DNA from: Phocaeicola barnesiae DSM 18169 = JCM 13652
Lineage (GTDB): Bacteria > Bacteroidota > Bacteroidia > Bacteroidales > Bacteroidaceae
Assembly (NCBI RefSeq): GCF_000374585.1
Contig: NZ_KB894643.1
Coordinates: 336,773 to 400,772, forward strand
Length of the DNA: 64,000 nt
Direction: 5' to 3'
Each line of letters starts with the position of its first letter. Positions within the stretch are counted from its first letter, which is position 1. A program made the translations under genes and the position numbers. The notes beneath the pieces are model-generated. The model saw only the letters and a list, made by a program, of their open reading frames with translations, ran no database searches and was not told where the DNA came from. This document shows positions 42,037 through 56,607 of the stretch, one piece after another.

Positions 42037-42573
42037 CTACAAAAAGAGTCTGCACCAGTTATCGAAGCGGTCCAGACCCTCTTTTCCGTACTTCTGGATG
42101 CTTTTCCGTGCCTTTTCCACACTCTTTTCACGGTCCAGATGGGTTTTGGAGAAGAATTTGTCGGCAAAACAGATGAGTTGCTCTTCCAGGCTGACCGGCA
42201 CAAGTTCCCTGTGCGGTACCGGAAGCCCCTGGCTGATGATGCTCTGTAGTGTCAGACCGGCTCCCGTATGCCGTTCACACACCAGCGCATGCTTCGGGAA
42301 GCCTTCCTCACGCATCAGGTCAGCTCCCAGGTATCCGTGACAGATATACGGATAATGTCCCATGCAATAGATTTTATCGGCATCGGTCTTGAAGATACCG
42401 ATGTCGTGAAGCATGGCCGCCTCTTCAATAAAGGGTATATCGAGCTCGAGTTCCGGATGTTTCCGAGCCATAGCCAAAGCCTTATCGGCTACCGAACGGC
42501 TATGAGTTACCAGAATATGTTTCAGTTCATTATCCAACGGATAATACTTGTCTATGATTGCATACGGATTCAT
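42037..42573 (-). CDS. HD-domain hydrolase
   Basis: 178-aa soluble protein with an HD phosphohydrolase fold: HSRSVADKALA (first His), AAMLHDIGIF (HD pair), a later His in CERHTGAG, and ICFADKFFSKT as the closing Asp motif. Such proteins hydrolyse nucleotides or phosphate esters. The substrate is unknown. Same strand as lptD and perhaps co-transcribed. Confidence 0.85.
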   Translation of the reverse strand: MNPYAIIDKYYPLDNELKHILVTHSRSVADKALAMARKHPELELDIPFIEEAAMLHDIGIFKTDADKIYCMGHYPYICHGYLGADLMREEGFPKHALVCERHTGAGLTLQSIISQGLPVPHRELVPVSLEEQLICFADKFFSKTHLDREKSVEKARKSIQKYGKEGLDRFDNWCRLFL

Positions 42574-42746
42574 ATACTTTTCCTTTTTTTACTTTTTATC
42601 ACTACGGATGTAAGCGTATTTTTAGCTATCGTGATAACAAAGATATAAAAAATAATCGGAAAAATACCAACGGAATTCTTCCGGTTCAAAACTTACGGGA
42701 ACAGATTCAAAAACATCCGCATCCGATTCAAAAAAATTCCCGAACG

Positions 42747-42777
42747 CTTGCCGTCATCCGGAAATCGTCTATCTTTG
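42747..42777 (+). promoter_or_regulatory. Promoter of the NamZ-like gene
   Basis: CTTG at 42747-42750 (one mismatch to TTTG), 19-nt spacer, TATCTTTG at 42770-42777, 32 nt before the ATG. Confidence 0.65.
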
Positions 42778-42809
42778 TCTACCAGAACGTTATAAAAGGA
42801 CAAAGCACT

Positions 42810-44009
42810 ATGAAACATCTCTGTACATACCTCCTCGCATGGATATGGATTTTCGGGCTGGCCGTTACGACCGCCTACGGAGAAGACCTGCGCACCGGAG
42901 CCGACCGGACGGAAGCCTATCTCCCGCTTCTGAAGGGGAAACGGATTACCCTGGTAGTGAACCAGACCTCGCGGATAGGAGAAACACACCTGCTGGACAC
43001 ACTTTGCGCCCTGGGCATACGCCCCGTACAGATACTGGCCCCGGAGCACGGATTCCGAGGGACGGCCGATGCGGGCGAAACGGTCCGGAACGGGAAAGAT
43101 GCCCGTACCGGTGTACCCATCTATTCCCTGTACGGGAAGAACAAGAAGCCTCAACCGGAACAATTGCAACGGACGGACTGGGTGGTGTTCGACATCCAGG
43201 ATGTGGGCGCCCGCTTCTATACCTACATCAGCACATTATATTATGTGATGCAGGCCTGCGCCGAGCAACACAAGCCCCTCCTCCTGCTGGACCGCCCCAA
43301 CCCGTGCGACTACATCGACGGACCGGTGCTGAAAAACGGCTACAAGAGCTTTGTGGGCATGTTCCCCATTCCGGTATTGCACGGATGTACCATCGGAGAA
43401 CTGGCCCGGATGATGAACGGAGAAGGCTGGCTGGGAAACGGACTGCGGTGTGAGCTGACCGTCGTTCCGGTAAGCGGATGGCAACACGGCCAACCGTATT
43501 CGCTCCCGGTAAAACCCTCGCCCAACCTACCGAACGACCAGGCCATTGCCCTCTATCCTTCCCTGTGTCCCTTCGAAGGAACTCCTGTCAGCGTGGGAAG
43601 AGGGACGGCAAACCCCTTCCAGGTTGTCGGAAGCCCCGTTACACGGGATTTCCCCTACTCGTTCGTACCGAAGCCGACGGCCGGATCTGACAAGAATCCG
43701 CTACAGAACGGAAAGACCTGCTACGGACTCGACCTGCGCCAGACGACTCCCCCCGCCGGATTCTCGTTGGAGTACGTCCTCCGATTCTACCAGGCCTACC
43801 GGAAAGCCGGGCAAGGTGACAAATTCTTCAGCCGTTCCCGTTTCTTCGACCTGCTGATGGGAACCGACCAGGTACGTCTGGACATCCTGAAAGGAAAAGA
43901 CGAAACCGGAATCCGCTCCGCCTGGCAGGCCGACCTGGACAAGTACCGGACCTTGCGGAAGAAATACCTGCTCTATCCGGAACCGGCTTCTTCCGTTTCC
44001 GGCCAATAA
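42810..44009 (+). CDS. namZ: Exo-beta-N-acetylmuramidase, NamZ-like (DUF1343, GH171)
   Basis: 399-aa exported enzyme. Signal peptide to about residue 23 (VTTAYG). Family motifs read in order: LVVNQTSRIG, ILAPEHGFRGTADAGE, SLYG, DIQDVGARFYTYISTLYYVM, LLDRPNPC and PNLPNDQAIALYPSLC. NamZ enzymes release terminal MurNAc from peptidoglycan fragments; Tannerella and Bacillus members are characterised. A longer frame runs upstream through the promoter and is not used. No MurNAc transporter is adjacent, so recovery of the sugar must involve distant genes. Confidence 0.88.
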   Translation: MKHLCTYLLAWIWIFGLAVTTAYGEDLRTGADRTEAYLPLLKGKRITLVVNQTSRIGETHLLDTLCALGIRPVQILAPEHGFRGTADAGETVRNGKDARTGVPIYSLYGKNKKPQPEQLQRTDWVVFDIQDVGARFYTYISTLYYVMQACAEQHKPLLLLDRPNPCDYIDGPVLKNGYKSFVGMFPIPVLHGCTIGELARMMNGEGWLGNGLRCELTVVPVSGWQHGQPYSLPVKPSPNLPNDQAIALYPSLCPFEGTPVSVGRGTANPFQVVGSPVTRDFPYSFVPKPTAGSDKNPLQNGKTCYGLDLRQTTPPAGFSLEYVLRFYQAYRKAGQGDKFFSRSRFFDLLMGTDQVRLDILKGKDETGIRSAWQADLDKYRTLRKKYLLYPEPASSVSGQ

Positions 44010-44082: not shown

Positions 44083-45798
44083 TTATTTACCACCGTAACC
44101 AGGATTCTGTTCCAGAAGATTATTTGCCCCTATGATGCTATAATGAATCGGGAACCGATTCAGATACTGATTATTAGTCGCTTTGTGGTCCCACCAGTCT
44201 TCGGTTACATAGGCACCCCAGCGAACCAGGTCTGTACGACGGCGTCCTTCGCCCAGGAATTCGAGTTTCCATTCCTTCAGCATACGGTACTTGTCGAGGT
44301 TGGCGGCGGTTACAGGGTCCGGATCAACGCCATCGGCAAAGTTACGCTTACGTACGGCATTGATCAAATCGGCAGCCCCTTGCTTGTCGCCGGCACGCAT
44401 CTTGCACTCAGCCAGGGTATAATAGATTTCACTCAAGCGAATCACAGGAATATCGGGATTGTACATCTCCTTATACTCGTCGGCATTCGGTCTCGGACTC
44501 CGCTTCATCAGACGTACGCCGGAATCCTCTTCGCCCGTAGCGATGGTAGAAGGCAACTCATCCACACTCGCATATTCCTTTCCGACCTTGGTAAAACAAG
44601 CTATCTGGTCACGGATGACAAGCGGCTGACCGATATAGTCTCTCGCTCCGACACAGACCCAATCCGGATGATCAGGATTGACCAGCTTGCCTACGACAAA
44701 CATGCCACGGTACTTTCCACCTTCCTCATAAACATATTGCTGCTTACGGACATCCTTATCGTCGTAACCTTCATAGTTATTACTCAAGTTGAAGTGATAC
44801 AGGTTCCCTTTCGGGTCACGGCTAGGAATCAGACAACTTCCGTTGTCCGCATCGGAATCCTTCAGGCCACCCAGGAAGCCCTTGTAATTGTAAGGCATGG
44901 AAGGTTTCCAATAACATCCGTCGGTCTCCAGCTTGGCATTCTCACTGGGGAGTGTCCAGATGATTTCGGGACAGGTTTCATTCCGGAAACCGAAGATGTC
45001 GGTCCAGTCGGTTGCCAATGCATAATTTCCGTACTTTCCATCGATGATATCCTGGCAAATCTGGGCGGCCTCCTCATACATCGGTTTCCCGATATAGGCC
45101 TCCGCATTGAAATAAAGCTTGGCCTTCAGAGCGGCGGCTACGGCCTGATGGACCGTGTTGGTCTCCATGGCTCCCAGTTCCGTCTTCACGGGTAATTCCG
45201 GAAGCGACTCGGTCAGCAACGAATCGATGAAATTGAATGTCTCCACATCGGTAGACCGAGGCAGGACCTCACTTTGGGTAGTCGTATAGAGCGGAACTCC
45301 CCCGAAGAAATCCAGCCCGTCCAAGTAAAAGGAAGCGACCAGTGTATTCATCTGGCTCAACATGGACTCTTTGGTTCCAGGCTCAAAACCCAAGGATTCG
45401 AAGTCAATCTTCTGCAAATCCTCCAGCGCGTCCCAGGACAATGCGATTCCCATCGAGAAATTCGTCCATCCATTCGCAATGCTGGTCATGTCTTCGGTAT
45501 ACTCATGGTGATGAAACTTCTGATAGACCGCCCCGTCGTACCAGTCGCTGCCCCGGGTCGGGACACAGAACTCATCCGTACCGAGTTCCTGCAACTCCCA
45601 CCGGGCCCTGTCTTGGGCAATCCACCATCGCCAATGGGTGAAAGGTCTGTTAAACCGTTCCCAAACCGCCTCCTGCGAAGAGTAGAACGTTTCGGGCACT
45701 ACTTGAGAATAAAACGTCGGCTCTACATTACAGGAAGTTCCCATCGTCAAAAAGAACAGACTTCCTACAATTCCTGATTTTATAGTAAATGCTTTCAT
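44083..45798 (-). CDS. SusD/RagB-family surface glycan-binding lipoprotein
   Basis: 571-aa lipoprotein; the signal ends with Cys23 (TMGTSC). TPR-like N-terminal helices and the RagB/SusD C-terminal segment (IPVIRLSEIYYTLAECKMRAGD and LNAVRKRNF-like) are present. SusD proteins cap the SusC channel and bind the incoming ligand. The stop codon is the last of the eight-gene minus-strand operon; susC lies 49 nt upstream. The ligand is unknown but should be the glycoside processed by the operon's oxidoreductases. Confidence 0.92.
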   Translation of the reverse strand: MKAFTIKSGIVGSLFFLTMGTSCNVEPTFYSQVVPETFYSSQEAVWERFNRPFTHWRWWIAQDRARWELQELGTDEFCVPTRGSDWYDGAVYQKFHHHEYTEDMTSIANGWTNFSMGIALSWDALEDLQKIDFESLGFEPGTKESMLSQMNTLVASFYLDGLDFFGGVPLYTTTQSEVLPRSTDVETFNFIDSLLTESLPELPVKTELGAMETNTVHQAVAAALKAKLYFNAEAYIGKPMYEEAAQICQDIIDGKYGNYALATDWTDIFGFRNETCPEIIWTLPSENAKLETDGCYWKPSMPYNYKGFLGGLKDSDADNGSCLIPSRDPKGNLYHFNLSNNYEGYDDKDVRKQQYVYEEGGKYRGMFVVGKLVNPDHPDWVCVGARDYIGQPLVIRDQIACFTKVGKEYASVDELPSTIATGEEDSGVRLMKRSPRPNADEYKEMYNPDIPVIRLSEIYYTLAECKMRAGDKQGAADLINAVRKRNFADGVDPDPVTAANLDKYRMLKEWKLEFLGEGRRRTDLVRWGAYVTEDWWDHKATNNQYLNRFPIHYSIIGANNLLEQNPGYGGK

Positions 45799-45847
45799 AG
45801 CTATGTATCTTAACTTTGTTCAGTCAATATCATTTTAACCATCATAC

Positions 45848-48800
45848 TCAGAAAGAGATTTGCAATCCCAATGTATATGTTCTTACCAACGGGTAAAGTC
45901 CGTCGAAACGTTCCGTACCCTTATCCCAGCCGGCAATATCGACCTCAGGGTTCACGCCGCTATACTTGGTGAACATACCCACATTTCCTACCGTAGCATA
46001 GATACGGAGCTTGTCGAGCCATTTGGAATACTCTTTCAACGAGAGTGAATATCCCAAAGAAATGGCATCAATCTTCAGGAAAGTACCATCTTCCAGGTAA
46101 TAGTCGCATATCTGTTTCTCACCCCGGATGTGGTTGAACTTTCCATAGGCTTCCTTCAGCACATTACACTCGTCGATTCCCTGGATACCGAAATACATGT
46201 TGATCATGTTGTACACATCGAACTTAATCCAGCTACGCATATTGATACTCAAGTCAAAGTTCTTGTACATGAATGAGTTATTCCATCCCAGCATAATCTT
46301 TGGCACGTAATTGCCGATGTATTGCTTGTCCGCTTCGGTCTTCTCGGCGGCAGGAATCACCTCTCCTTCCTTGTTGTACAACAAGAAATTACCGTCATCG
46401 TCAAATCCGGCAAACTTCCAGAGGTAGAAAGAACCGATGGTAGAACCTTCCTCCATTCTGGCGGCATCGCCCGGTGTACCCGGAGCCGGGAATGAGTTTC
46501 CATTGTAGTAAGTATTGTTTCCCCATAACGTAAGAATCTTACCGGTGTTATGAGCCAGATTCACCTTGGAAGTCCACACGAAGTCTTTGTTCCGGATGAT
46601 ATCACCCCCTATTTCGAATTCCCAACCTTTACTTTCCATGGCTCCGATGTTCTGCCATTGCGTTCCTTGGGTAAATGGAGGTTGAGGTACCTTCACCTCA
46701 TAGATCATGTTATCAATCTTGCGGCGATAGTAGTCGAACTTACCGTAAAGACGGTTGTCGAAGAAGGAGAAATCCAATCCGATGTTCCATTCCTTTTTCT
46801 CTTCCCATCCCAGGTTTTCGTTGATATTCTGCGTCTTACCATAAGAATAGGCCCAGGTTCCGTTAGGCAGCATCCAGTAAGCATCCGAACCCAAGACATT
46901 GGCCATGAAAGAGGAGCTGAAATCATTGTTACCTGTCACACCATAACCGAAGCGGAGTTTCAGGTCGTTTACCCAATCGGCTTTCTCCATGAACTTTTCG
47001 TTGGAAATACGCCATCCACCGGACAACGCCCAGAAATTTCCCCACCGGTTCTGAGCCGAGAATTTTGACGAACCTTCATGACGGATGGTTGCCGTCACCA
47101 TATATTTGTCGTTATAGGAATAGTTCGCACGGGCATATAGCGCAAACAAGCGTTCCGTGATGTTCTTTCCGGAACCCATTCCGGCTTTACCGTCACTCAG
47201 GTACGAACCTTTGCCGATATCCCAGAAACGGATTCCTTCTACATCGAAATTGTAGTTTTCGGCATAAAAGTTTTCACCGTTGTTTTCAAAGTAAGAATAA
47301 CCTGCTACGGCATTCAGGCTATGTCCTCCTTCCAGCTCCTTCACGTATGTGGCGTAACCTTCCGAAGTCAGGTTCTCGGTCTTACTGAACTCCAGTTTAG
47401 CCCATCCGGTACGGCTGTTGTTCACTTCATCCAGGTGATACCGGGAACGGAACTGGTGAAGCTCCCACTGACGGCTCTCATAACCGATGGTCTGCGTGTA
47501 CGACAGGCCAGGTATGGCCTTGACATTCAATTTCAAGGAAACTTCCGGTTTGAACCACTTGTCAAGTCCTTCGTAATCGTACAAGGCCGAATTGGCCAAC
47601 ACGTTGTAATCCAAGGTCTCGCCCGTCCATACATTGTATCCGCTCTCGCTATCCGGATCGTAAGGAGAACGAGTCGGGTTGTTTCTCAAAGCCTGCTGGA
47701 AATTAGGCCAGTTGTTATTTCTCCATGCCTGACGGTAATCCACGTTCGGCCGGATTTCGAGCCATCCGTCAAACAATTTGAAATTCGCGTTGATTCGCCC
47801 TCCGTAATCCTGTCGGGAATCATCAATGGCGATACCTTCGTTCTTCTGATAAAAGAAGGAAGTGAAGATCTGGGCATTTTCCGTTCCCAACTCCAGCGTC
47901 AGGTTGTGTTTCTGAGAGAAATTGTTGTCATTGATCAACTCTTCCCACCAATCCACATCATCTCCATAATCGATTCCGACGTTATGAGCCCTGTATTCAT
48001 CGGCGCTCAGCATTTCCGGTTTTCCGTAATCCTGCTTCTTGGAGAGTTCTGTACTATAAGTCAATTTGGCTTTCCCGTTCGTATTCGATCCACTCTTGGT
48101 CGTAATCAGGATAACTCCCGAAGCGGCCCGTGTTCCGTAAATGGCTCCGGCAGAGGCATCCTTCAGGACATCAATCGATTTCACATCGTCCAGATTGATG
48201 GAACGGATATCACCCCCCGGAAAACCATCGATGACAATCAAGGGCGAACGTCCGGCATTGATAGAAGTCATACCACGCAACTGGATAGTCGTTCCGGCAT
48301 TCGCGCTACCGTTGTTCTGCAACAACAATCCACTGATCTTACCCTGCAGGGAGGTCGTAATATCGGCTCCTCCAACCCCTTTCATCATATCATTTGCGGA
48401 AAGAGAAGTCACGGCACTGGTCACCTGTTTCTTCTCCATGGTTCCGTATCCTACCACAACCACCTCATCCAAGGTTTCCGAATCTTCGGACAAGGTGACG
48501 CGGATGAGATTCTGGCCTTTTACCGGCACCTCTTTCGTCTTATAGCCGATAAATGATATTTCCAGAACGGCATTGGCCGGTACATCCTGCAAGACGACCC
48601 GTCCGTCAATATCTGTTACATTCCCGTTTGTTGTTCCCTTTACCAATACATTGGCTCCAATCAGTTCTCCCGCATTGTCAGATACGACTACCGTCACCTT
48701 CTGATGCTGCTGGGCCATTGATTTTTCATTCAAATCACGATGGGAGGCCGATAAATCTTTAGCTTGCAAGTTAACCGTTGTAATCCCCAATAACCCCGAG

Positions 48801-48877
48801 ACAAGCAATACCGTCACTTGCCTGAACGAAGTACAACGCATGCCTAAGTTATGTTTCTTTCCAGATATCATAATCAA
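45848..48877 (-). CDS. SusC/RagA-family TonB-dependent outer-membrane transporter
   Basis: 1009-aa protein. Signal peptide, a carboxypeptidase-D-like regulatory domain (GANVLVKGTTNGNVTDIDGR...LEISFIGYKTKEV), a TonB box-like DEVVVVGYG, plug domain (IQLRGMTSINAGRSPLIVIDG), and a C-terminal barrel ending in LQISF. No N-terminal STN signalling domain is present, so the transporter is not of the anti-sigma-linked kind. With the SusD partner it should import a glycoside for the enzymes encoded upstream. Confidence 0.95.
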   Translation of the reverse strand: MIMISGKKHNLGMRCTSFRQVTVLLVSGLLGITTVNLQAKDLSASHRDLNEKSMAQQHQKVTVVVSDNAGELIGANVLVKGTTNGNVTDIDGRVVLQDVPANAVLEISFIGYKTKEVPVKGQNLIRVTLSEDSETLDEVVVVGYGTMEKKQVTSAVTSLSANDMMKGVGGADITTSLQGKISGLLLQNNGSANAGTTIQLRGMTSINAGRSPLIVIDGFPGGDIRSINLDDVKSIDVLKDASAGAIYGTRAASGVILITTKSGSNTNGKAKLTYSTELSKKQDYGKPEMLSADEYRAHNVGIDYGDDVDWWEELINDNNFSQKHNLTLELGTENAQIFTSFFYQKNEGIAIDDSRQDYGGRINANFKLFDGWLEIRPNVDYRQAWRNNNWPNFQQALRNNPTRSPYDPDSESGYNVWTGETLDYNVLANSALYDYEGLDKWFKPEVSLKLNVKAIPGLSYTQTIGYESRQWELHQFRSRYHLDEVNNSRTGWAKLEFSKTENLTSEGYATYVKELEGGHSLNAVAGYSYFENNGENFYAENYNFDVEGIRFWDIGKGSYLSDGKAGMGSGKNITERLFALYARANYSYNDKYMVTATIRHEGSSKFSAQNRWGNFWALSGGWRISNEKFMEKADWVNDLKLRFGYGVTGNNDFSSSFMANVLGSDAYWMLPNGTWAYSYGKTQNINENLGWEEKKEWNIGLDFSFFDNRLYGKFDYYRRKIDNMIYEVKVPQPPFTQGTQWQNIGAMESKGWEFEIGGDIIRNKDFVWTSKVNLAHNTGKILTLWGNNTYYNGNSFPAPGTPGDAARMEEGSTIGSFYLWKFAGFDDDGNFLLYNKEGEVIPAAEKTEADKQYIGNYVPKIMLGWNNSFMYKNFDLSINMRSWIKFDVYNMINMYFGIQGIDECNVLKEAYGKFNHIRGEKQICDYYLEDGTFLKIDAISLGYSLSLKEYSKWLDKLRIYATVGNVGMFTKYSGVNPEVDIAGWDKGTERFDGLYPLVRTYTLGLQISF

Positions 48878-48927
48878 AATATTGTAGAATAAACAAAAAT
48901 TAAAGGATTGATTCTCAATAGTAGTTG

Positions 48928-49836
48928 TTAATATTCTGCCTTAATGAAAGGGGCATCCAGCAGATAATCGATGCTCTCTCTCACACTCTTCAGTACGTCA
49001 TCCGTACTATATGATTCTATCTCGGCTACAATGTCTTTTACACCTGCCACATCCGCATTCCGGAAAATCGCGTCGTAACCAACCATACCGCTTTGTCCGA
49101 TTTCCCGATGGTCTTTCAGATGCAACATTCTGAAACGTCCCGGATACTTGTGAAAATAATCGACCGGACTATTCTGTCCTCTTACCACCCAATATACGTC
49201 CATTTCGAAAAATACATATTCAGGGTCTGTGTGTTGCAACAGATAATCCATCATCACCTCACGGTTTTCCACTTTCTGGAATTCATGGGCATGGTTATGA
49301 TAACCGAATTGTAATCCGGCTGCCTTGCAACGTTTACCTATCTCGTTGAAATACTTGCAATAAAGATCCAGGTCCTTCACCGTTTTGGGAACTTCCAGAT
49401 AAGGGAATACGATGTATTTCATGCCAGCTTCCTTGTGGTCGGCTATACACTGGTTCCACCAGGCCAATGCCTCAGACAAATCGCCGGTCTGCAATTCATG
49501 GGCATTCAGCGCACGGCTACAATGCGAAGACAATACCTTCATTCCGGCATTTTCCACATCGTGCTTGAAATCGGACGGTTTACGTCCATAGAATTTACCT
49601 TCGCCGTAATAAGCTGCCTCTACCGAAGTATACCCCATATCAGCCAGACTTTTCAATGTCTTGAGATACACATCAGAAGCTTTGCCGTCTTTATTGACAT
49701 CATTAATCAGACTCCGTACGGAATAAAGCTGGATTGTTATTTCTTTTTTGGCCTCTTTTTCCGGATGAGCCATAACGAACTGGAATGGAATCAAGAACAG
49801 GATTCCAAGCATCCAAAAATAACATTGTCTTTTCAT
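48928..49836 (-). CDS. Exported TIM-barrel sugar epimerase-like protein (putative 3-keto-glucal hydratase)
   Basis: 302-aa member of the AP-endonuclease-2/xylose-isomerase-like TIM-barrel family, with a signal peptide (to about residue 24, FVMAHPEK). Metal-site strands are visible: GYHNHAHEF, FFEMDVYW and MLHLKDHRE. In the gut-bacterial stepwise glycoside route described in 2024, a TIM-barrel protein hydrates the 3-keto-glucal left by the lyase. Its location next to a DUF1080 gene and two Gfo/Idh/MocA genes fits that role, but an isomerase is also possible. Probably periplasmic. Confidence 0.8.
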   Translation of the reverse strand: MKRQCYFWMLGILFLIPFQFVMAHPEKEAKKEITIQLYSVRSLINDVNKDGKASDVYLKTLKSLADMGYTSVEAAYYGEGKFYGRKPSDFKHDVENAGMKVLSSHCSRALNAHELQTGDLSEALAWWNQCIADHKEAGMKYIVFPYLEVPKTVKDLDLYCKYFNEIGKRCKAAGLQFGYHNHAHEFQKVENREVMMDYLLQHTDPEYVFFEMDVYWVVRGQNSPVDYFHKYPGRFRMLHLKDHREIGQSGMVGYDAIFRNADVAGVKDIVAEIESYSTDDVLKSVRESIDYLLDAPFIKAEY

Positions 49837-49924
49837 AGATAAGATTAGGAATTAAGCAGTTCCGGGCTCAAAACAGCCTTAGCCCGGAACTTGCATCAAC
49901 TTTTAATTTAATATATAATGAAAA

Positions 49925-50815
49925 CTAGTCGAGTATCTTGATACGGATGTTTCTGAACCAGACATCATCGCCATGGTCTTGAAGTCCGATAAATCCTTCA
50001 TGGTTTTCGCCACCGCAATTATTCAGCAATTCAAAAGCCAACGGCCATTTATCTTCACTGAACTTACTTTCCTGCAACATCTTGGTCCATTGAGGAGTCC
50101 ACAAGTGATATTCTACGACGTTTTCTCCGTTCTGTCCATGAACTACGGTACCTTTATAAACCATGATTTTAGCCTGGTTCCATTCGCCATAAGGCTTCTG
50201 GTTCTGAGGAACGGCCGGAATCATGTCATACAAAGAAGCAGACTGGCGGTTGTTGTCCTTACCCAATTTCGCATCCGGATGGTTGGCATTATCCAATACC
50301 TGATATTCAGGAGCGGAGATATAAATCGGTTCCAGCACTTCGTTTCCGTCCTTGTCTTTCGAAGTGACTTCCTGTGCCAGATACAAGATACCGGAGTTAC
50401 CGCCCTTCGAAATCTTCCATTCCAGTTGCAATTCAAAGTTCTTGAACTTATGTCCGAAAATCAAATCGCCACCATCGTTGTTCTGTGCTTCACCGCCACC
50501 TGAACCATTGAATTTGATGCAACCGTCTTCGATGACCCAACGTGAAGGAACCCTGTCCTTACCATAACCACGCCAGCCGTTGAATGTCTTTCCGTCGAAG
50601 ATTGTAATGTAACCATCCTTGTCAATCGGAAATGCCAGACTATCTGTTTCAGGCGCCTTCAACGATTTGGAATAAGACAACATAGTGGTAGTAGGAGCGG
50701 TAGCTGTAGTTGCCGTTTCTTCCGCTACCTGATTATCGGCCTTTTTCTGGCCGCCACAAGCCGCCAAAGTACAACTCAAGGCCAATACGCCCAAGGTATA
50801 ATTCATTTTTTTCAT
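49925..50815 (-). CDS. DUF1080 lipoprotein (3-keto-glycoside lyase/hydrolase-like)
   Basis: 296-aa lipoprotein with Cys20 (TLAAC) acylation site. Residues ~65-290 form the DUF1080 (Pfam 3-keto-disaccharide hydrolase) jellyroll: TIFDGKTFNGWRGYGKDR, GGEAQNNDGGDLIFGHKFKNFELQLEWKI, NSGILY and the closing GFIGLQDHGDDVWFRNIRI. Family members cleave glycosidic bonds after the sugar has been oxidised at C3. The neighbouring Tat-exported dehydrogenase would supply that 3-keto sugar in the same compartment. Confidence 0.85.
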   Translation of the reverse strand: MKKMNYTLGVLALSCTLAACGGQKKADNQVAEETATTATAPTTTMLSYSKSLKAPETDSLAFPIDKDGYITIFDGKTFNGWRGYGKDRVPSRWVIEDGCIKFNGSGGGEAQNNDGGDLIFGHKFKNFELQLEWKISKGGNSGILYLAQEVTSKDKDGNEVLEPIYISAPEYQVLDNANHPDAKLGKDNNRQSASLYDMIPAVPQNQKPYGEWNQAKIMVYKGTVVHGQNGENVVEYHLWTPQWTKMLQESKFSEDKWPLAFELLNNCGGENHEGFIGLQDHGDDVWFRNIRIKILD

Positions 50816-50867
50816 GTGAACAAATATTTAAAGTTATTGATAATCATTCTGTTGATATTCCGGATAA

Positions 50868-52352
50868 TCATCTAGGCATATCCGGCAATGCCCAACCTGC
50901 ACGGTAATGATGCTTGATCAATTCGGCGGCAAATTCCTGCGCGTTGATAGGCTCTGTCCATGTCTTGTTGAACGACGGATGTCCGTTATGAATGGTAAAG
51001 CCGTCCTTGATACAAGTCTTCAGCGTTTCGTTTTCACCGATATTGGTGAAGCGCATGTTTTCGCCGTCCCATTCCAATGTCTTGTTCAGGCCCTGTAGAC
51101 GGACTGCCAATACACCCATTACGACCATTTCATTCAATGGACCAGCTTCGGAGAAATCAGACTTAACCGGAACACGGTATTCCGGATCTTCCTTACATGC
51201 ACGTACCCAATCCATTTCGTGAGAAGTAGTCACACGACGGCAAACCTTCGGTGCATTAGGCACTCTTCCGGAAAGCAAGAACGGATTTTCTCCATAGCAG
51301 CTACAAACCAGCGTATCCTTGGTTCCATGGAAAATAGTCAGACCACCGTTTGCCGGCATCAACGGCTTTCCTTCCGGGAATCCTTTCGGACGTTCAGGCA
51401 ACAGACCACCGTCGTACCAGTGTACTTCCACTTCGGGCATGGAAACTTTCGGCATGTTCTCGCGGGCAGGGAAAATCATTTTTACATGCTGTGCCTGAGG
51501 AGCACATGCATTCAGCAACAGGGTAGAACTTGCTTCCACTTTGGTAGGATAACCCAGTTTCAAGGCCTTGAAAGGCTGATGCAGGATATGACAAGCCATA
51601 TCTCCCAAAGCTCCAGTACCGTAATCCCACCATCCACGCCAGTTCCAAGGATGATAAATCGAATTATAAGGATTCAGTTTGGCCGGACCGGTAAAGAGGT
51701 CCCAGTTCAATGTCTTCGGAATACGTTCTTCTTTTTCCGGTTCATTCAAGCCCTGCGGCCAGATAGGACGGTCTGTCGCACATTCCACTTTTACGACATC
51801 ACCGATTTCACCGTTCCAAATCCATTCGCAAACCAGATCTGTTCCCTCGCCGGATGCTCCCTGGTTTCCCATCTGGGTAACTACACCGGTCGATTTCGCC
51901 AATTTAGTCAGCAAACGTGACTCATATACCGAATGGGTCAACGGCTTCTGGCAATAGACATGTTTCCCCATTGTCATCGCATCTGCGGTGATGATGGCAT
52001 GGGTATGGTCGGCCGTAGCAATCATGACACCGTCAATGGATTTTCCCATTTCATCCAGCATCTTGCGATAGTCCCAATATTTTTTCGCATTGGGGAACTC
52101 ATCGAATACGCCTTTTGCATAATTCCAGTCCACATCGCATAATGCAACCAGATTTTCAGTGTCTTTCACGGCATTAATATTGCTATGTCCGATACCTCCG
52201 ACACCGATAGCAGCAATATTCATCTTATCGGACGGTGAGATGTGTCCGAAACTCTTACCCAAGATAGAACTAGGAGCGATTGTGAAAGAAGCCAACGTGG
52301 CAGCTCCTGTCTTCAAAAATTCTCTTCGAGATACTTTTACCATAAGATTCAA
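50868..52352 (-). CDS. Tat-exported Gfo/Idh/MocA oxidoreductase (putative glycoside 3-dehydrogenase)
   Basis: 494-aa protein beginning with a twin-arginine signal (VSRREFLKTGAATLASF), so it is folded with its NAD(P) cofactor before export. Rossmann domain: IAAIGVGGIGHSN, CDVDW. The catalytic EKP-like motif reads QKPLTHSV. Substrate-side region: HILHQPFKALKLGYP. Predicted step: oxidation of a glycosyl C3 hydroxyl in the periplasm. It is encoded with tatA/tatC in one operon, which is notable. An earlier ATG (52352) and one at 52343 are both possible starts. Confidence 0.9.
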   Translation of the reverse strand: MNLMVKVSRREFLKTGAATLASFTIAPSSILGKSFGHISPSDKMNIAAIGVGGIGHSNINAVKDTENLVALCDVDWNYAKGVFDEFPNAKKYWDYRKMLDEMGKSIDGVMIATADHTHAIITADAMTMGKHVYCQKPLTHSVYESRLLTKLAKSTGVVTQMGNQGASGEGTDLVCEWIWNGEIGDVVKVECATDRPIWPQGLNEPEKEERIPKTLNWDLFTGPAKLNPYNSIYHPWNWRGWWDYGTGALGDMACHILHQPFKALKLGYPTKVEASSTLLLNACAPQAQHVKMIFPARENMPKVSMPEVEVHWYDGGLLPERPKGFPEGKPLMPANGGLTIFHGTKDTLVCSCYGENPFLLSGRVPNAPKVCRRVTTSHEMDWVRACKEDPEYRVPVKSDFSEAGPLNEMVVMGVLAVRLQGLNKTLEWDGENMRFTNIGENETLKTCIKDGFTIHNGHPSFNKTWTEPINAQEFAAELIKHHYRAGWALPDMPR

Positions 52353-52377
52353 TTTAAAGTTAATACTATCAATATTT

Positions 52378-53460
52378 TTATTTAAAGTGTTTTAAAAGCC
52401 CATAGCCGTTTGTCATCGTCCTTCTCCGTTGGCGGATTTCCTCCAGTGTGGCATTGTCACCGATAGCGGGTAAGGCATGCATCGTAGCGTCCTGCAGGAA
52501 TTTCCAAGCATATCCGGACGCAATTGCCGAATCACGCATCGGAGGTAAATCCGGCGAAAGCTTCCCTTCAAGAATACGCCGGGCAAACAAGTCGCACAAC
52601 ACATCGATATTCTTCCCGCCATAAGGTCTTTCTATCCGCTCGGTGCGGGTAACTCCATGTAATTCCACTACAGCCGTCTTGAAATCATGAGTCATTCTGG
52701 CTATCCCCTTAGTACCTATCAAGTCAGTATATGAATTGTGTGTCTGGTCTTTCGCCAACTGCCCATATACGAATCCCTGTGTAATATCGAATACGATTCC
52801 GCTCTGGAATGTACCATGACACTGGAGCCACCACGGGTCTTTATAGCTCCACATTCTCATCCCCTGCGCATGCCAGGTCTCATATTCGCATCCGGCATAC
52901 CAGCGGGCAATATCGACATAATGCATTCCACAATCATGGAAAGCAGGTCCTTCGTATTCGTGCCCTTCACCGGGAGCCAATCCCGGAGTCATGTGGCAGA
53001 TACGGATAATGGCCAGTTCACCAATCTCACCGGACTCGACAAACTGCTTCAACACATGATGATACCAGGCATTACGCAAATACAGATTGACCGTAGCGAT
53101 GATGGAACTATTCTCCACCAGTTTTACCGCTTGCCACTCCCGTTCGATGGAGTCGGCTATCGGTTTCTCGGCTATCACATGCTTATCGTAACGGACCGCC
53201 TTTTCAATCTGAGACAGACGCTGGTCCGCCAACGTGAACAGTCCGACGGCCTGGACAGATTCGTCTTCGAAAATGACCTGCTCGTCTGCTACAATCCGTG
53301 TGCCTTCCGGAGCCAGACCCTCCGCTTCTTTTCTGACTTCAGGATTCACATCGCAGATGTATGCAATGTTCCATTTCTCACTTTTCTTCATTTCATCCAG
53401 GTAGAATCTGCCCATTCTACCCAATCCGATGATTCCTATTTTTATCTGTGAATCTTTCAT
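52378..53460 (-). CDS. Cytosolic Gfo/Idh/MocA oxidoreductase (putative 3-keto-sugar reductase)
   Basis: 360-aa NAD(P)-dependent protein without signal peptide. Rossmann motif IGIIGLGRMGRFY at 6-18, catalytic EKP in VIAEKPIADSI, and HDCGMHYVDIARWYAG in the second domain. Compared with the neighbour it is shorter and cytosolic. In a redox loop it would reduce the imported 3-keto sugar back to the normal hexose. The substrate is inferred from context only. The next gene starts 25 nt downstream. Confidence 0.87.
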   Translation of the reverse strand: MKDSQIKIGIIGLGRMGRFYLDEMKKSEKWNIAYICDVNPEVRKEAEGLAPEGTRIVADEQVIFEDESVQAVGLFTLADQRLSQIEKAVRYDKHVIAEKPIADSIEREWQAVKLVENSSIIATVNLYLRNAWYHHVLKQFVESGEIGELAIIRICHMTPGLAPGEGHEYEGPAFHDCGMHYVDIARWYAGCEYETWHAQGMRMWSYKDPWWLQCHGTFQSGIVFDITQGFVYGQLAKDQTHNSYTDLIGTKGIARMTHDFKTAVVELHGVTRTERIERPYGGKNIDVLCDLFARRILEGKLSPDLPPMRDSAIASGYAWKFLQDATMHALPAIGDNATLEEIRQRRRTMTNGYGLLKHFK

Positions 53461-53490
53461 AACCTTTTAGATATTAAAATTTTTAAAGGC

Positions 53491-54300
53491 TTATTCCTCC
53501 GGCACATCATCCGCCTTTACCAGCCATGCACTCATTTCCCACAACATATAGATAGGAATAAAGACAGCCATTAGCGTGAACGGATCCGAAGACGGAGTAA
53601 TCACCGCGGCTACCGTCAGAAGGATGACAATGGCATACCTCCGGTACTTCTTGAAAAACGTACGGGTCAGTAACCCTAATTTAGAGAACAAAGCAGCCAG
53701 CAAAGGCAATTCAAACATGATACCCATCATAAAGACCAGCATCAAAAAGTTATTCATGTATGAATCCAATGTCAACTGATTGGTAATGAACGAACTCAGT
53801 TCGTACGTATACAGGAACCGCAACGTCAGAGGAAATACAACAGAATATCCTACCACACATCCCAAAAAGAACATAAATGTACCAAAGACAAATGCCCATC
53901 TTATCTTGATACGTTCATTATCATACAAAGCCGGACAAATGAATTTCCAGATTTCATAAATCATATAAGGAAAAATAATCAGCAGGGATGTCCAGAAAGA
54001 CAAAGACATGTGAATGAAAAACTGGGATGCCAGCTTGATGTTGATAACCTCCACCTGGAAAGGCTTCTCCAAAAAATCAGGGACCAACGAAGTATATGAA
54101 TTCAATTTCGCCAGAAACCGATATAAGAAGAAGTCTTCTCTGGACGGAGCCAGCACCACCTGATTGAACAGAGAAGGTATAAACATAAAACTGGTCAACA
54201 CTCCTATGGCCCATGCGATAAGAATCCGTATCAATGTCCACCTCAGCACTTCCAAATGCTCCCAGAGTGGCATTTCCATATGATCTACTACATCACGCAT
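53491..54300 (-). CDS. tatC: Sec-independent protein translocase subunit TatC
   Basis: 269-aa membrane protein with six transmembrane helices. The N-terminal PLWEHLEVLRWTLIRI is the TatC signature that recognises the twin-arginine signal. Together with tatA 5 nt upstream it forms a minimal two-component Tat system. The Tat substrate encoded two genes downstream is an obvious client. Confidence 0.93.
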   Translation of the reverse strand: MRDVVDHMEMPLWEHLEVLRWTLIRILIAWAIGVLTSFMFIPSLFNQVVLAPSREDFFLYRFLAKLNSYTSLVPDFLEKPFQVEVINIKLASQFFIHMSLSFWTSLLIIFPYMIYEIWKFICPALYDNERIKIRWAFVFGTFMFFLGCVVGYSVVFPLTLRFLYTYELSSFITNQLTLDSYMNNFLMLVFMMGIMFELPLLAALFSKLGLLTRTFFKKYRRYAIVILLTVAAVITPSSDPFTLMAVFIPIYMLWEMSAWLVKADDVPEE

Positions 54301-54305
54301 ACCGG

Positions 54306-54530
54306 TTATTTCTTTTCAGGAAGTGAAGTTTCGTTGTTCAAATCAGTATCCAGACCTTTGTTGATATCCTTTTCGATACCGTTCATTCCATCCTTGAACG
54401 TCTTGATTCCTTTCCCCAAACCGTGCATCAGTTCCGGAATCTTCTTTCCACCGAATAAGAGTAAAGCGATAAAAGCAATCAACAGGATTTCAGAGGTTCC
54501 TACAGAACCCAAAAATAAAAGTGTACCCAT
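54306..54530 (-). CDS. tatA: Sec-independent protein translocase subunit TatA
   Basis: 74-aa protein. One hydrophobic helix (EILLIAFIALLLF, about 14-26), the FGGKKIPEL hinge, and a long amphipathic helix (GLGKGIKTFKDGM). This is the pore-forming TatA/E type; no separate TatB is present. It is first in the operon, behind TATATTTG at 54593-54600. Confidence 0.9.
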   Translation of the reverse strand: MGTLLFLGSVGTSEILLIAFIALLLFGGKKIPELMHGLGKGIKTFKDGMNGIEKDINKGLDTDLNNETSLPEKK

Positions 54531-54942
54531 AACAGCAATAGATTTAAAAATTAGTATTCAAAATTGAAGGTCGTCATTGAAACCTTGTGCTGCAAATATA
54601 AAGGAAGGGAAAAGGGCCGTGTAAAATGAAATATTTTTTGTAGTATCCGAAAAATTCTAAAGAAACGATTTCCAGGAAGTTACAGGTATTCTCCTGCAAT
54701 AATTTATAGAGAAGACTTGGAGATGGCACCCGTTCCAAACCTAAAGGAAAAAATGATACAATACATCCAAAGACACTTCCAATGCCCCCAATGGCATCTA
54801 CACTTTCAAACTGGAAGCATTTTACAGAATGCTGTTTATCAGTCCATTAAAATTATATTCAGAAAAAACACTCTACACAAATAGAGTAAAAATCAAATTA
54901 TTTATAATTTCGTACGATTAAATCTAGTTTTTGTGATGGCTT
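54531..54942. other. Divergent regulatory region between the Tat/glycoside operon and its facing regulator
   Basis: Non-coding, AT-rich. The minus-strand -7 box TATATTTG (54593-54600) serves the tatA operon; its -33 position lacks TTTG, which suits a regulated promoter. For the plus-strand gene I see no consensus -7 box. Confidence 0.5.
54593..54600 (-). promoter_or_regulatory. -7 box for the tatA-susD operon
   Basis: TATATTTG on the minus strand, 62 nt upstream of the tatA start, matches TAnnTTTG. Confidence 0.45.
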
Positions 54943-56607
54943 ATGAAACGCACTGCTTTTTTCATCTTATTCGCATGCTGCTGGGTCTCGATTTTCTCCC
55001 AAACCCCCGACACCGGCACTCTGCTCCGACAATTGTCGGATTCATTGAACTATTGTATCAAACACAGACAAGAATATATAAATAAGAAGGAAACCCGCAT
55101 AAGAACCATCAAACACCGGTTGACAAACAAGCCACAAGACGACTGGCAACGATACGAAATATACGACCAGCTCTCCAAAGAATATCAGAAATTCAATGTC
55201 GATTCGGCAATCCATTATGCGGAGAAGAAACTAGAATTATCAACTCTCCATCACAAGTCTACGGAACTCACCAGGTCTAAAATAGACCTTTCATTGCTTT
55301 GTTCCATGAGAGGCAGGTATCTGGAAGCTGAAAAAATCCTGCAAAGCATCAACAGCAGTTCACTGGACAAGAATCTCCGCGCCGAATACTATAGCGCCTA
55401 CCACCAGTTCTGGGAGTATTATTCCATTTCCTCCCGAGACAACGCCTACGCTAAAAAACAATTTGCACTGTATGATGACTCACTCATCCATGTCATGGAT
55501 CACTCCAGCATATCCTATAAGATATTACAGGCAAATATTGCAGGAAACAAAAAACAATACCTTGAAGCCGAAAAGAAATTCAAAGAGCTGTTGGCCGATG
55601 AAGAAATTGGAAGTGCCCATTATGCCATGATAACCTGTGGGCTTGCCTTCAATTACATGACCCTGAACCAGCCGGATCAGGCTCAAATTTATTTCACCTT
55701 ATCGGCCATTACAGATTTACGCAATGCCACCAGAGAAAACATGTCATTACAGATTCTGGCGATGATGGAGTTTCAGAACAAGAATCTGGAACTGGCCTCC
55801 ACCTATGCGCAAATAGCCGTAGAAGATGCCGTAGCTTCAGGCATCCATTTCCGTACTTCGCAGATTTATCAATTCTATACAGACCTGAATGCCCAGTACA
55901 AACAAGAAGAAACCAAACAGAAAGCCAAATTGCGAACGAGTCTGATTGTCATCAGCTGTATCTCCTTCTGCTTGATTCTACTGGCTATTTATATTGTTCT
56001 ACAGATACGGAGAATCTCCCGCATCAAGGAAACGCTTTCTCAGAGCAACGAACAGTTGAGGGAATTAAACAACCGGCTGAACCTGATGAATGAAGAACTG
56101 AACCACAAAAACGAAGAGTTGCATGAGATTGGAAACATCAAAGAAAAATACATTGCCCAGTTCTTCGATTTATGTTCCAGTTACATCAGTAAAATGGAGA
56201 ACTACCAGAACCAACTCTATAAACTGGCCATCAATCACCACTATGAAATGCTGGTCAAACGATTGAAGTCGACCAGCCAGATTGATGAAGAGCTGGAAGC
56301 TCTCTATAAACATTTCGACAGTATTTTCTTAAGTTTGTATCCTACCTTCATAGAGGAGTTCAATGCGTTGCTGAGCGAAAACGAGAAAATCACACTTAAA
56401 TCAGAACACCTGTTGAACAAGGAGCTACGCATCTATGCGTTACTCCGGCTAGGATTGGTCGATAGCAATAAGATGGCAAGTTTTCTGCGGTGCTCCATCA
56501 GTACCATCTACAACTATCGTACAAAGATGAGAAACAAATCCAGAATCGAAAGGGATGATTTTGAAAATCAAGTCATGCAAATAGGAAAAGCAGACACCCA
56601 CAAATAA
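54943..56607 (+). CDS. TPR / DUF6377-type membrane-bound regulator
   Basis: 554-aa protein. Signal peptide (to about residue 19), TPR-like helices at about 60-310 (LSKEYQKFNVDSAIHYAEK and similar), one transmembrane helix at 332-354, coiled coil at about 360-402, and a cytosolic C-terminal half. The last ~50 residues contain an HTH-like segment SNKMASFLRCSISTIYNYRTKMRNKS. This layout is that of Bacteroidetes regulators with a periplasmic TPR sensor and a DUF6377 output. It faces the Tat/SusCD operon across 412 nt and is its likely regulator. A sensing signal is not evident. Confidence 0.78.
   Translation: MKRTAFFILFACCWVSIFSQTPDTGTLLRQLSDSLNYCIKHRQEYINKKETRIRTIKHRLTNKPQDDWQRYEIYDQLSKEYQKFNVDSAIHYAEKKLELSTLHHKSTELTRSKIDLSLLCSMRGRYLEAEKILQSINSSSLDKNLRAEYYSAYHQFWEYYSISSRDNAYAKKQFALYDDSLIHVMDHSSISYKILQANIAGNKKQYLEAEKKFKELLADEEIGSAHYAMITCGLAFNYMTLNQPDQAQIYFTLSAITDLRNATRENMSLQILAMMEFQNKNLELASTYAQIAVEDAVASGIHFRTSQIYQFYTDLNAQYKQEETKQKAKLRTSLIVISCISFCLILLAIYIVLQIRRISRIKETLSQSNEQLRELNNRLNLMNEELNHKNEELHEIGNIKEKYIAQFFDLCSSYISKMENYQNQLYKLAINHHYEMLVKRLKSTSQIDEELEALYKHFDSIFLSLYPTFIEEFNALLSENEKITLKSEHLLNKELRIYALLRLGLVDSNKMASFLRCSISTIYNYRTKMRNKSRIERDDFENQVMQIGKADTHK

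Follow-up and report, generated by a model that had tools for sequence, protein, structure and literature searches.

The window analysed here, a stretch of 64,000 nucleotides (nt) from the genome of Phocaeicola barnesiae DSM 18169 = JCM 13652, carries at 44083..54530 a run of eight tightly packed minus-strand genes headed by tatA and tatC of the twin-arginine translocation (Tat) system. We consider it likely that this run is an operon of the BT2156-BT2160 type, which cleaves glycosides via 3-keto sugars, with a Tat translocase of its own (TatA and TatC) whose main cargo is the glycoside 3-dehydrogenase. Judged from its sequence, the enzymatic core of the run is the known BT2156-BT2160 module, and its chemistry is not new. 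Tat pairs linked to a cargo gene are likewise a known kind of arrangement, and it is the recurrent combination of the two that is new. No prior report of the tatAC link was found in the open-access literature, a coverage that excludes preprints and the 2024 Nature and 2021 Cell Reports papers.

The list of open reading frames and the profile searches place tatA, tatC, a BT_2159-type oxidoreductase, a BT_2158-type dehydrogenase, a DUF1080 lipoprotein, a TIM barrel, susC and susD in this order (Table 1). The gaps from tatA to susD are 5, 30, 34, 52, 88, 50 and 49 nt, where the 34-nt gap counts the dehydrogenase from ATG 52343 and not from the listed TTG 52352. The original prediction had described eight minus-strand genes with gaps of 5-88 nt, and both its coordinates and its gene identities (TatA, TatC, two Gfo/Idh/MocA proteins, DUF1080, TIM, SusC/SusD) agree with the Pfam and NCBIfam matches. 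Both Gfo/Idh/MocA proteins, each with a GFO_IDH_MocA domain, exceed the curated cut-offs of NCBIfam equivalog models, named 'glycoside 3-dehydrogenase' (BT_2158_fam) and 'disaccharide 3-dehydrogenase' (BT_2159_fam). The dehydrogenase matches PDB entries 8tdf (780 bits) and 8tdh (764 bits), the DUF1080 protein matches 3nmb, 4hxc, 8tda and 8v31 at 458-541 bits, and the TIM protein matches 8tct, 8tcd and 8tcs at 403-447 bits, the best scores being those to 3nmb and 8tct. Together with a SusR-family neighbour, the run thus has the parts of a BT2156-BT2160-type module, and the two family models and the solved homologues of three enzymes bear out the earlier assignment to a route of oxidation, elimination, hydration and reduction. 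A scan for conserved positions in 103 DUF1080 rows found none that reached 95%, and it was not used. The window genome has a second, weak match to PF06439 (DUF1080) at C7:98658-99218 (30.8 bits versus 26.8).

That the cluster could target a non-glycoside, such as an inositol-type substrate, with the same fold families is unlikely. The TIM protein is weakly IolE-like (52.7 bits, cut-off 290) and the oxidoreductases are weakly IolG-like (63.8 and 109.4 bits, cut-off 355), as this proposal would have it. Against these scores stand the equivalog cut-offs passed by both oxidoreductases and the matches to solved structures, of up to 541 bits for the DUF1080 protein and 447 bits for the TIM protein.

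The PDB entries of the 8TC and 8TD series presumably belong to the 2024 gut-glycan paper, and the 2024 Nature work reportedly concerns BT2156-BT2160 of Bacteroides thetaiotaomicron and a 3-keto route for glucosinolates and disaccharides. The literature describes BT2158 as a periplasmic glycoside 3-dehydrogenase on which growth with trehalose, leucrose or palatinose depends (PMC11300592), and BT2157 is named 3-ketotrehalose hydrolase (PMC9007349). Conversion of glucosinolates in vitro requires BT2158 plus BT2156 or BT2157 (PMC12385236), mutants of BT2157 or BT2158 have no defect on raffinose-family sugars (PMC11501099), and BT2160 is SusR4, for which no role was predicted in 2013 (PMC3878776). 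Since BT2156-BT2158 have been studied and the families match, the chemistry predicted for the cluster is prior knowledge. It is relevant to the breakdown of disaccharides and plant glucosinolates in the gut (PMC11300592, PMC12385236, PMC11879859).

Among the proteins of the run, whose N-termini were examined, only the dehydrogenase carries a Tat signal (VSRREFLKTG), in line with the Tat-dependent dehydrogenase proposed at the outset. By eye, the DUF1080 protein has a lipoprotein signal with a lipobox-like LAAC, SusD has a lipoprotein signal and the TIM protein a Sec-type signal, and no signal peptide is visible at the N-terminus of the BT_2159-type protein. By this survey one enzyme needs Tat and one would remain cytosolic, and Sec would serve for the rest of the exported parts. 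The S-R-R-x-F motif is invariant in all 18 aligned dehydrogenases (that of the window and those of 17 of the 30 listed dehydrogenase loci). Against the Pfam Tat-signal model PF10518 the window dehydrogenase scores 21.7 bits, below the cut-off of 22.7, and its orthologues in genomes G097, G168, G196 and G126 exceed that cut-off. Other Tat-signal candidates of the window genome, collected in two incomplete scans and all below the Pfam cut-off, are a DUF6282 protein, a flavin mononucleotide reductase, a ferredoxin-type protein and an aldo-keto reductase. As evidence for Tat signals across the window genome the DNA pattern for SRRxFLK is weak: it occurs at 9 places versus 5 for the reversed control, and 2 of the 9 places read as Tat signals in long frames.

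In the run, tatA and tatC are followed by one intervening gene and then by the dehydrogenase with its SRREFLK signal. The window genome, whose assembly is 99.97% complete, has two tatC genes: the copy in the cluster and a second at C2:122604-123305, which is paired with tatA and lies in a housekeeping-like setting, by eye among purC, menG, aroE and phoH-like genes. As genome G126 also has a separate tatAC away from its dehydrogenase, the cluster copy is extra in these two genomes.

The linkage of tatAC with the dehydrogenase recurs among relatives. In 201 family genomes, drawn evenly from the larger family, TatC was found in 160. With at most about seven candidates scored per genome, and two partial matches in G010 (606-611 bits) left out, at least 52 BT_2158_fam matches of 699 bits or more were listed in 37 genomes, and 41 of these matches, from 32 genomes, exceed the curated cut-off. 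TatC is present in all 37 genomes with a listed match versus 123 of the 164 others (p 8e-5). The surroundings of all 52 listed loci were examined, and tatC lies within ~10 kb at 22 of them, 16 of which belong to the 41 over the cut-off; two further loci of the 52 have tatA alone and no tatC. Among the best 80 named loci, which overlap with the family set in at least two cases (L077, L114), tatC is found in the stretch examined at 16; of the 42 loci flanked by more than 5 kb on each side, 14 have it. The linked named loci include Dysgonomonas, Alistipes/Rikenellaceae and uncultured Bacteroidales. A lone tatA stands just upstream of the dehydrogenase in L241 (G006), L243 (G034), L068 and L101, and contig ends may explain some of these cases.

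At least five gene orders are seen in the linked clusters. The first, tatA-tatC-BT_2159-dehydrogenase-DUF1080-TIM, is that of the window genus (in G026 with no visible TIM). In Alistipes and several genera of the family the order is BT_2159-tatA-dehydrogenase-DUF1080-TIM-tatC, in some with no visible BT_2159. The tatA-tatC pair comes after a block running from the dehydrogenase to TIM in G195, G096 and, with a spacer, Dysgonomonas; it precedes TIM-dehydrogenase-DUF1080 in L099, L129, L136 and L137; and it lies on the opposite strand in L131 and L141. That proximity was kept through this reordering points to selection for linkage.

The susC-susD pair is less constant. In the window it belongs to the same run as the enzymes, as in a polysaccharide utilisation locus, and comes after the TIM gene; L160 (G126) has the pair at the same place. 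It is absent downstream in L157 and L158, so that we rejected susCD as a conserved part of the cluster, and L159 ends at a contig edge. Of the 4 same-genus clusters that could be viewed on this side, 2 have susCD, and it is an addition in part of the genus. In L157 (G097) the cluster sits, by eye, between rpoC-like and rpsL/fusA-like genes, a chromosomal place different from that in the window. In L062, from an uncultured Bacteroidales bacterium, the dehydrogenase is 97% identical to that of the window and the nearest among the best 80 named loci; DUF1080, TIM and susCD were not detected downstream there, by loss or in a misassembled contig of a metagenome-assembled genome.

The history of the linked translocase was followed in a tree of 73 TatCs, from which three duplicate rows and L236, L237, L239, L240 and L242 were left out. 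Placing the 31 dehydrogenase-linked rows takes 5 label changes, whereas shuffled labels take 23.6 on average (0 of 500 as low); linked and unlinked rows were gathered by different routes. The rows termed 'housekeeping' are a leftover class, most of them with no hit in the motif scan (L156, L161 and L163 were not motif-scanned), and one of them, L200, has one Tat-signal neighbour of another type. A group of 25 rows with support 100/96 unites 23 linked and 2 unlinked rows and includes the window TatC; the other TatC of the window genome groups with same-genus TatCs that are not dehydrogenase-linked. Since the linked rows L077, L191/L195 and four from Alistipes fall outside this group, the linkage arose more than once. 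Distances between dehydrogenases correlate with those between TatCs over 35 linked loci (r 0.58, 0 of 2000 permutations as high; L141, a long branch, was dropped), and also with those of TIM (0.60, 33 loci), DUF1080 (0.48, 35 loci) and BT_2159 (0.88, 16 loci). Shared ancestry contributes to the correlation with TatC.

Could tatAC have landed beside catabolic genes by chance and been carried along? The addition of susCD in some lineages only, and a chromosomal place of the cluster that varies by species, as in L157, would fit such an origin. On the other side, the 22 linked loci of the 52 listed, and the 16 of the best 80 named loci, compare with ~0.8% expected for 1.15 tatC placed randomly per 3-Mb genome (p 3e-32 for the listed loci, kinship ignored). 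The several gene orders and the distance correlation, though shared ancestry also correlates, speak against chance as well. We rejected chance linkage on the locus counts and regard it as highly improbable. tatAC is therefore not elsewhere in nearly all relatives, and the meaningful tatAC link of the original prediction holds after this check of synteny.

A serious contender, to which we give a little less than an even chance, is that the linked Tat is the general one, conveniently placed: tatAC would stand near the dehydrogenase through shared history or because the enzyme is an abundant client, with no dedication. Several observations weigh against an operon with its own translocase, and part of them fit this contender directly. 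Of the 22 linked genomes, 19 have no tatC besides the linked one, and the window genome, G126 and G152 have two. By scores only, 8 of the 10 linked genomes scanned have a Tat-signal match over the Pfam cut-off besides the linked dehydrogenase, among them 7 of the 9 with a single tatC; G097 and G096 have only weak other matches. L196 (G013) and L201 (G140) are same-genus TatCs of the linked group with no dehydrogenase nearby and no strong one in the genome; these TatCs lie near susC/susD-like genes and a murI-like gene. Likewise, other tatAC pairs are found near other Tat-signal genes, for aldo-keto reductases and small Cys-rich proteins. To these points are added the 30 of the 52 listed family loci and the 64 of the best 80 named loci with no tatC in the stretch examined. 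These include the Bacteroides loci closest to the window for which 10 kb of upstream DNA was available (L063, L064, L066, L067), which have the enzymes and no tatC; many of the other stretches are short. In the window genome no Tat signal reaches the PF10518 cut-off of 22.7, and the BT_2159-type protein has no close solved relative in the PDB (best 63 bits).

Two findings argue against a merely general Tat: a further tatAC stands apart from the dehydrogenase in the window genome and in G126, which makes the cluster copy extra, and the linkage arose more than once and survives reordering. A single tatC together with other Tat-signal matches suggests that in single-tatC linked genomes the linked Tat probably serves further clients too, and strict exclusivity as a general rule was rejected on these grounds. 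Only genomes with two tatC genes, like that of the window, leave room for a dedicated linked Tat. The 'self-contained system' of the original prediction was for the same reasons too strong, as susCD is found in 2 of 4 judgeable clusters, other Tat-signal proteins occur, and most linked genomes have one tatC; its enzymes and its tatAC linkage stand.

Other tatAC pairs may also be tied to a cargo. We viewed 40 regions, nearly all around other tatC places, and labelled them by eye from N-termini. A Tat-signal protein of aldo-keto-reductase look is near tatAC in 12 of the 40 (L204, L205, L207, L209, L211, L222, L224, L229-L232, L234), and both of the two such proteins tested with profiles match that Pfam domain and 4Fe-4S models. 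In 4 of the 40 (L208, L210, L212, L216), a second tatAC copy has a small Cys-rich protein with an RREFFK-type signal nearby; of these four proteins, three match TIGR04117 (CXXX-repeat radical SAM target) below its cut-off, and it is possible that they are Tat-exported modified peptides. Judging by these neighbours, these bacteria may commonly place tatAC beside a cargo gene. A wider reading, which we put forward tentatively and would sooner doubt than defend, is that Bacteroidota have a cargo-dedicated Tat: an old TatAC lineage, co-inherited and switched on with glycoside 3-dehydrogenase operons, would export only that enzyme in two-Tat species, and sister TatACs would each be bound to a different single cargo (Fe-S aldo-keto reductases, CXXX-repeat radical-SAM peptides).

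How an operon with its own Tat pair could work is suggested by its parts. The substrate, a glycoside or a small oligosaccharide, would enter the periplasm through SusCD. While still in the cytosol, the dehydrogenase would take up its nicotinamide cofactor and fold, as suggested by Gfo/Idh/MocA kin such as glucose-fructose oxidoreductase (GFOR); since there is no pool of free nicotinamide adenine dinucleotide (NAD) in the periplasm, Tat would then carry the enzyme across in its folded state. In the periplasm it would oxidise C3 of the sugar. Solved and assayed homologues suggest that the next steps, elimination of the leaving group and rehydration of the glycal to 3-keto-glucose, would fall to the TIM enzyme and the DUF1080 lipoprotein. 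The BT_2159-type enzyme could reduce 3-keto-glucose to glucose in the cytosol; alternatively, the dehydrogenase could use 3-keto-glucose to reset its own bound cofactor. Under a SusR-type regulator and from a promoter ahead of tatA, the exporter and its cargo would increase jointly. By analogy with known systems, we think the likeliest purpose of an own Tat pair in the operon is to let export capacity increase along with a dehydrogenase that has to fold around NAD(P) in the cytosol, as the cofactor-bound GFOR with its Tat signal does. The recurrence of the Tat link suggests that export of the dehydrogenase, folded and with its cofactor bound, limits the route or is regulated together with it. 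Linkage of tatAC genes offers a route to finding Tat cargos in Bacteroidota, and makes it testable whether these bacteria use cargo-dedicated Tat systems.

Table 1. Genes and sites of the tatA-susD run and its divergent regulator, in window coordinates
Feature	Position	Strand	Evidence
tatA, first in the run	54306..54530	-	PF02416 TatA_B_E 52.3 bits; TIGR01411 tatAE 60 bits, cut-off 53.9
tatC, of the dehydrogenase-linked TatC group, one of two in the genome	53491..54300	-	PF00902 201 bits; TatC tree
BT_2159-family Gfo/Idh/MocA oxidoreductase, predicted cytosolic 3-keto-sugar reductase	52378..53460	-	NF058563 699.6 bits, cut-off 650
BT_2158-family glycoside 3-dehydrogenase, Tat signal SRREFLK	50868..52343	-	NF058561 867.5 bits, cut-off 750
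DUF1080 (PF06439, 3-keto-disaccharide hydrolase) lipoprotein, BT2157-like	49925..50815	-	PF06439 164 bits
Xylose-isomerase-like TIM barrel (AP_endonuc_2), BT2156-like, predicted periplasmic lyase/hydratase	48928..49836	-	PF01261 59.8 bits
SusC/RagA TonB-dependent outer-membrane transporter	45848..48877	-	TIGR04056 682 bits, cut-off 368
SusD/RagB outer-membrane lipoprotein	44083..45798	-	PF07980 102 bits
Divergent SusR-family glycan regulator	54943..56607	+	NF058541 516 bits, cut-off 480
TATATTTG, match to Bacteroides -7 promoter box upstream of tatA	54593..54600	-	TTTGCA core shared with L157-L159

The regulator gene adjoins the run and was missing from the original prediction. Homologues of the SusR family stand beside the run in L157-L160 too, and the regulator is of the same NCBIfam kind as expected for BT2160/SusR4, a match at family level only. 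Upstream of tatA, a TTTGCA core is common to the window and L157-L159 in an alignment made without L160. The strict Bacteroides -33/-7 promoter pattern was matched in this region in L158 only and not in the window; a relaxed pattern is matched in the window (-242 from tatA), L158 and L159. The box in Table 1 follows the -7 consensus of Bacteroides promoters; this -7-like box, nearer to tatA in the window, has no matching -33 box. We predict that the eight genes form a single operon, and the features that would fit co-expression are the short same-strand gaps and the -7-like box before tatA. At its other end the run is bounded by a convergent NamZ-like gene (42558-44009, plus strand), 73 nt from susD. 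The NamZ-like gene has both NamZ domains (exo-beta-N-acetylmuramidase).

Among known systems, BT2156-BT2160 of B. thetaiotaomicron shares with the window a SusR-type regulator, the BT_2159 and BT_2158 oxidoreductases, DUF1080 and the TIM barrel. It differs in that its consecutive locus tags suggest no tatAC between BT2159 and BT2160, whereas the window has tatAC at that position and susCD after the TIM gene.

GFOR of Zymomonas acts on free glucose and not on C3 of glycosides, and to our knowledge it does not lie in a Tat operon; Halbig 1999 is, by its title, said to be a further source on it. Its sequence matches the window dehydrogenase weakly (best E 1.6e-4). Like that enzyme it is a periplasmic Gfo/Idh/MocA protein with a bound cofactor and a Tat signal (PMC4628093). 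The LacABC-DUF1080 lactose route of Caulobacter resembles the window in its proposed periplasmic oxidation at C3 followed by a DUF1080 protein, and differs by a membrane-bound three-part dehydrogenase instead of a Gfo/Idh/MocA enzyme with a Tat signal (PMC9007349).

The phoD-tatAdCd genes of Bacillus subtilis likewise have a two-gene TatAC pair beside the gene of its cargo and another TatAC in the genome, and in B. subtilis cargo and translocase are co-expressed under phosphate starvation (PMC6708511, PMC3827258). Phylum, cargo and regulator differ from those of the window, and only one cargo is known for phoD-tatAdCd. With these differences, we would regard phoD-tatAdCd as the best functional analogue of the window operon.

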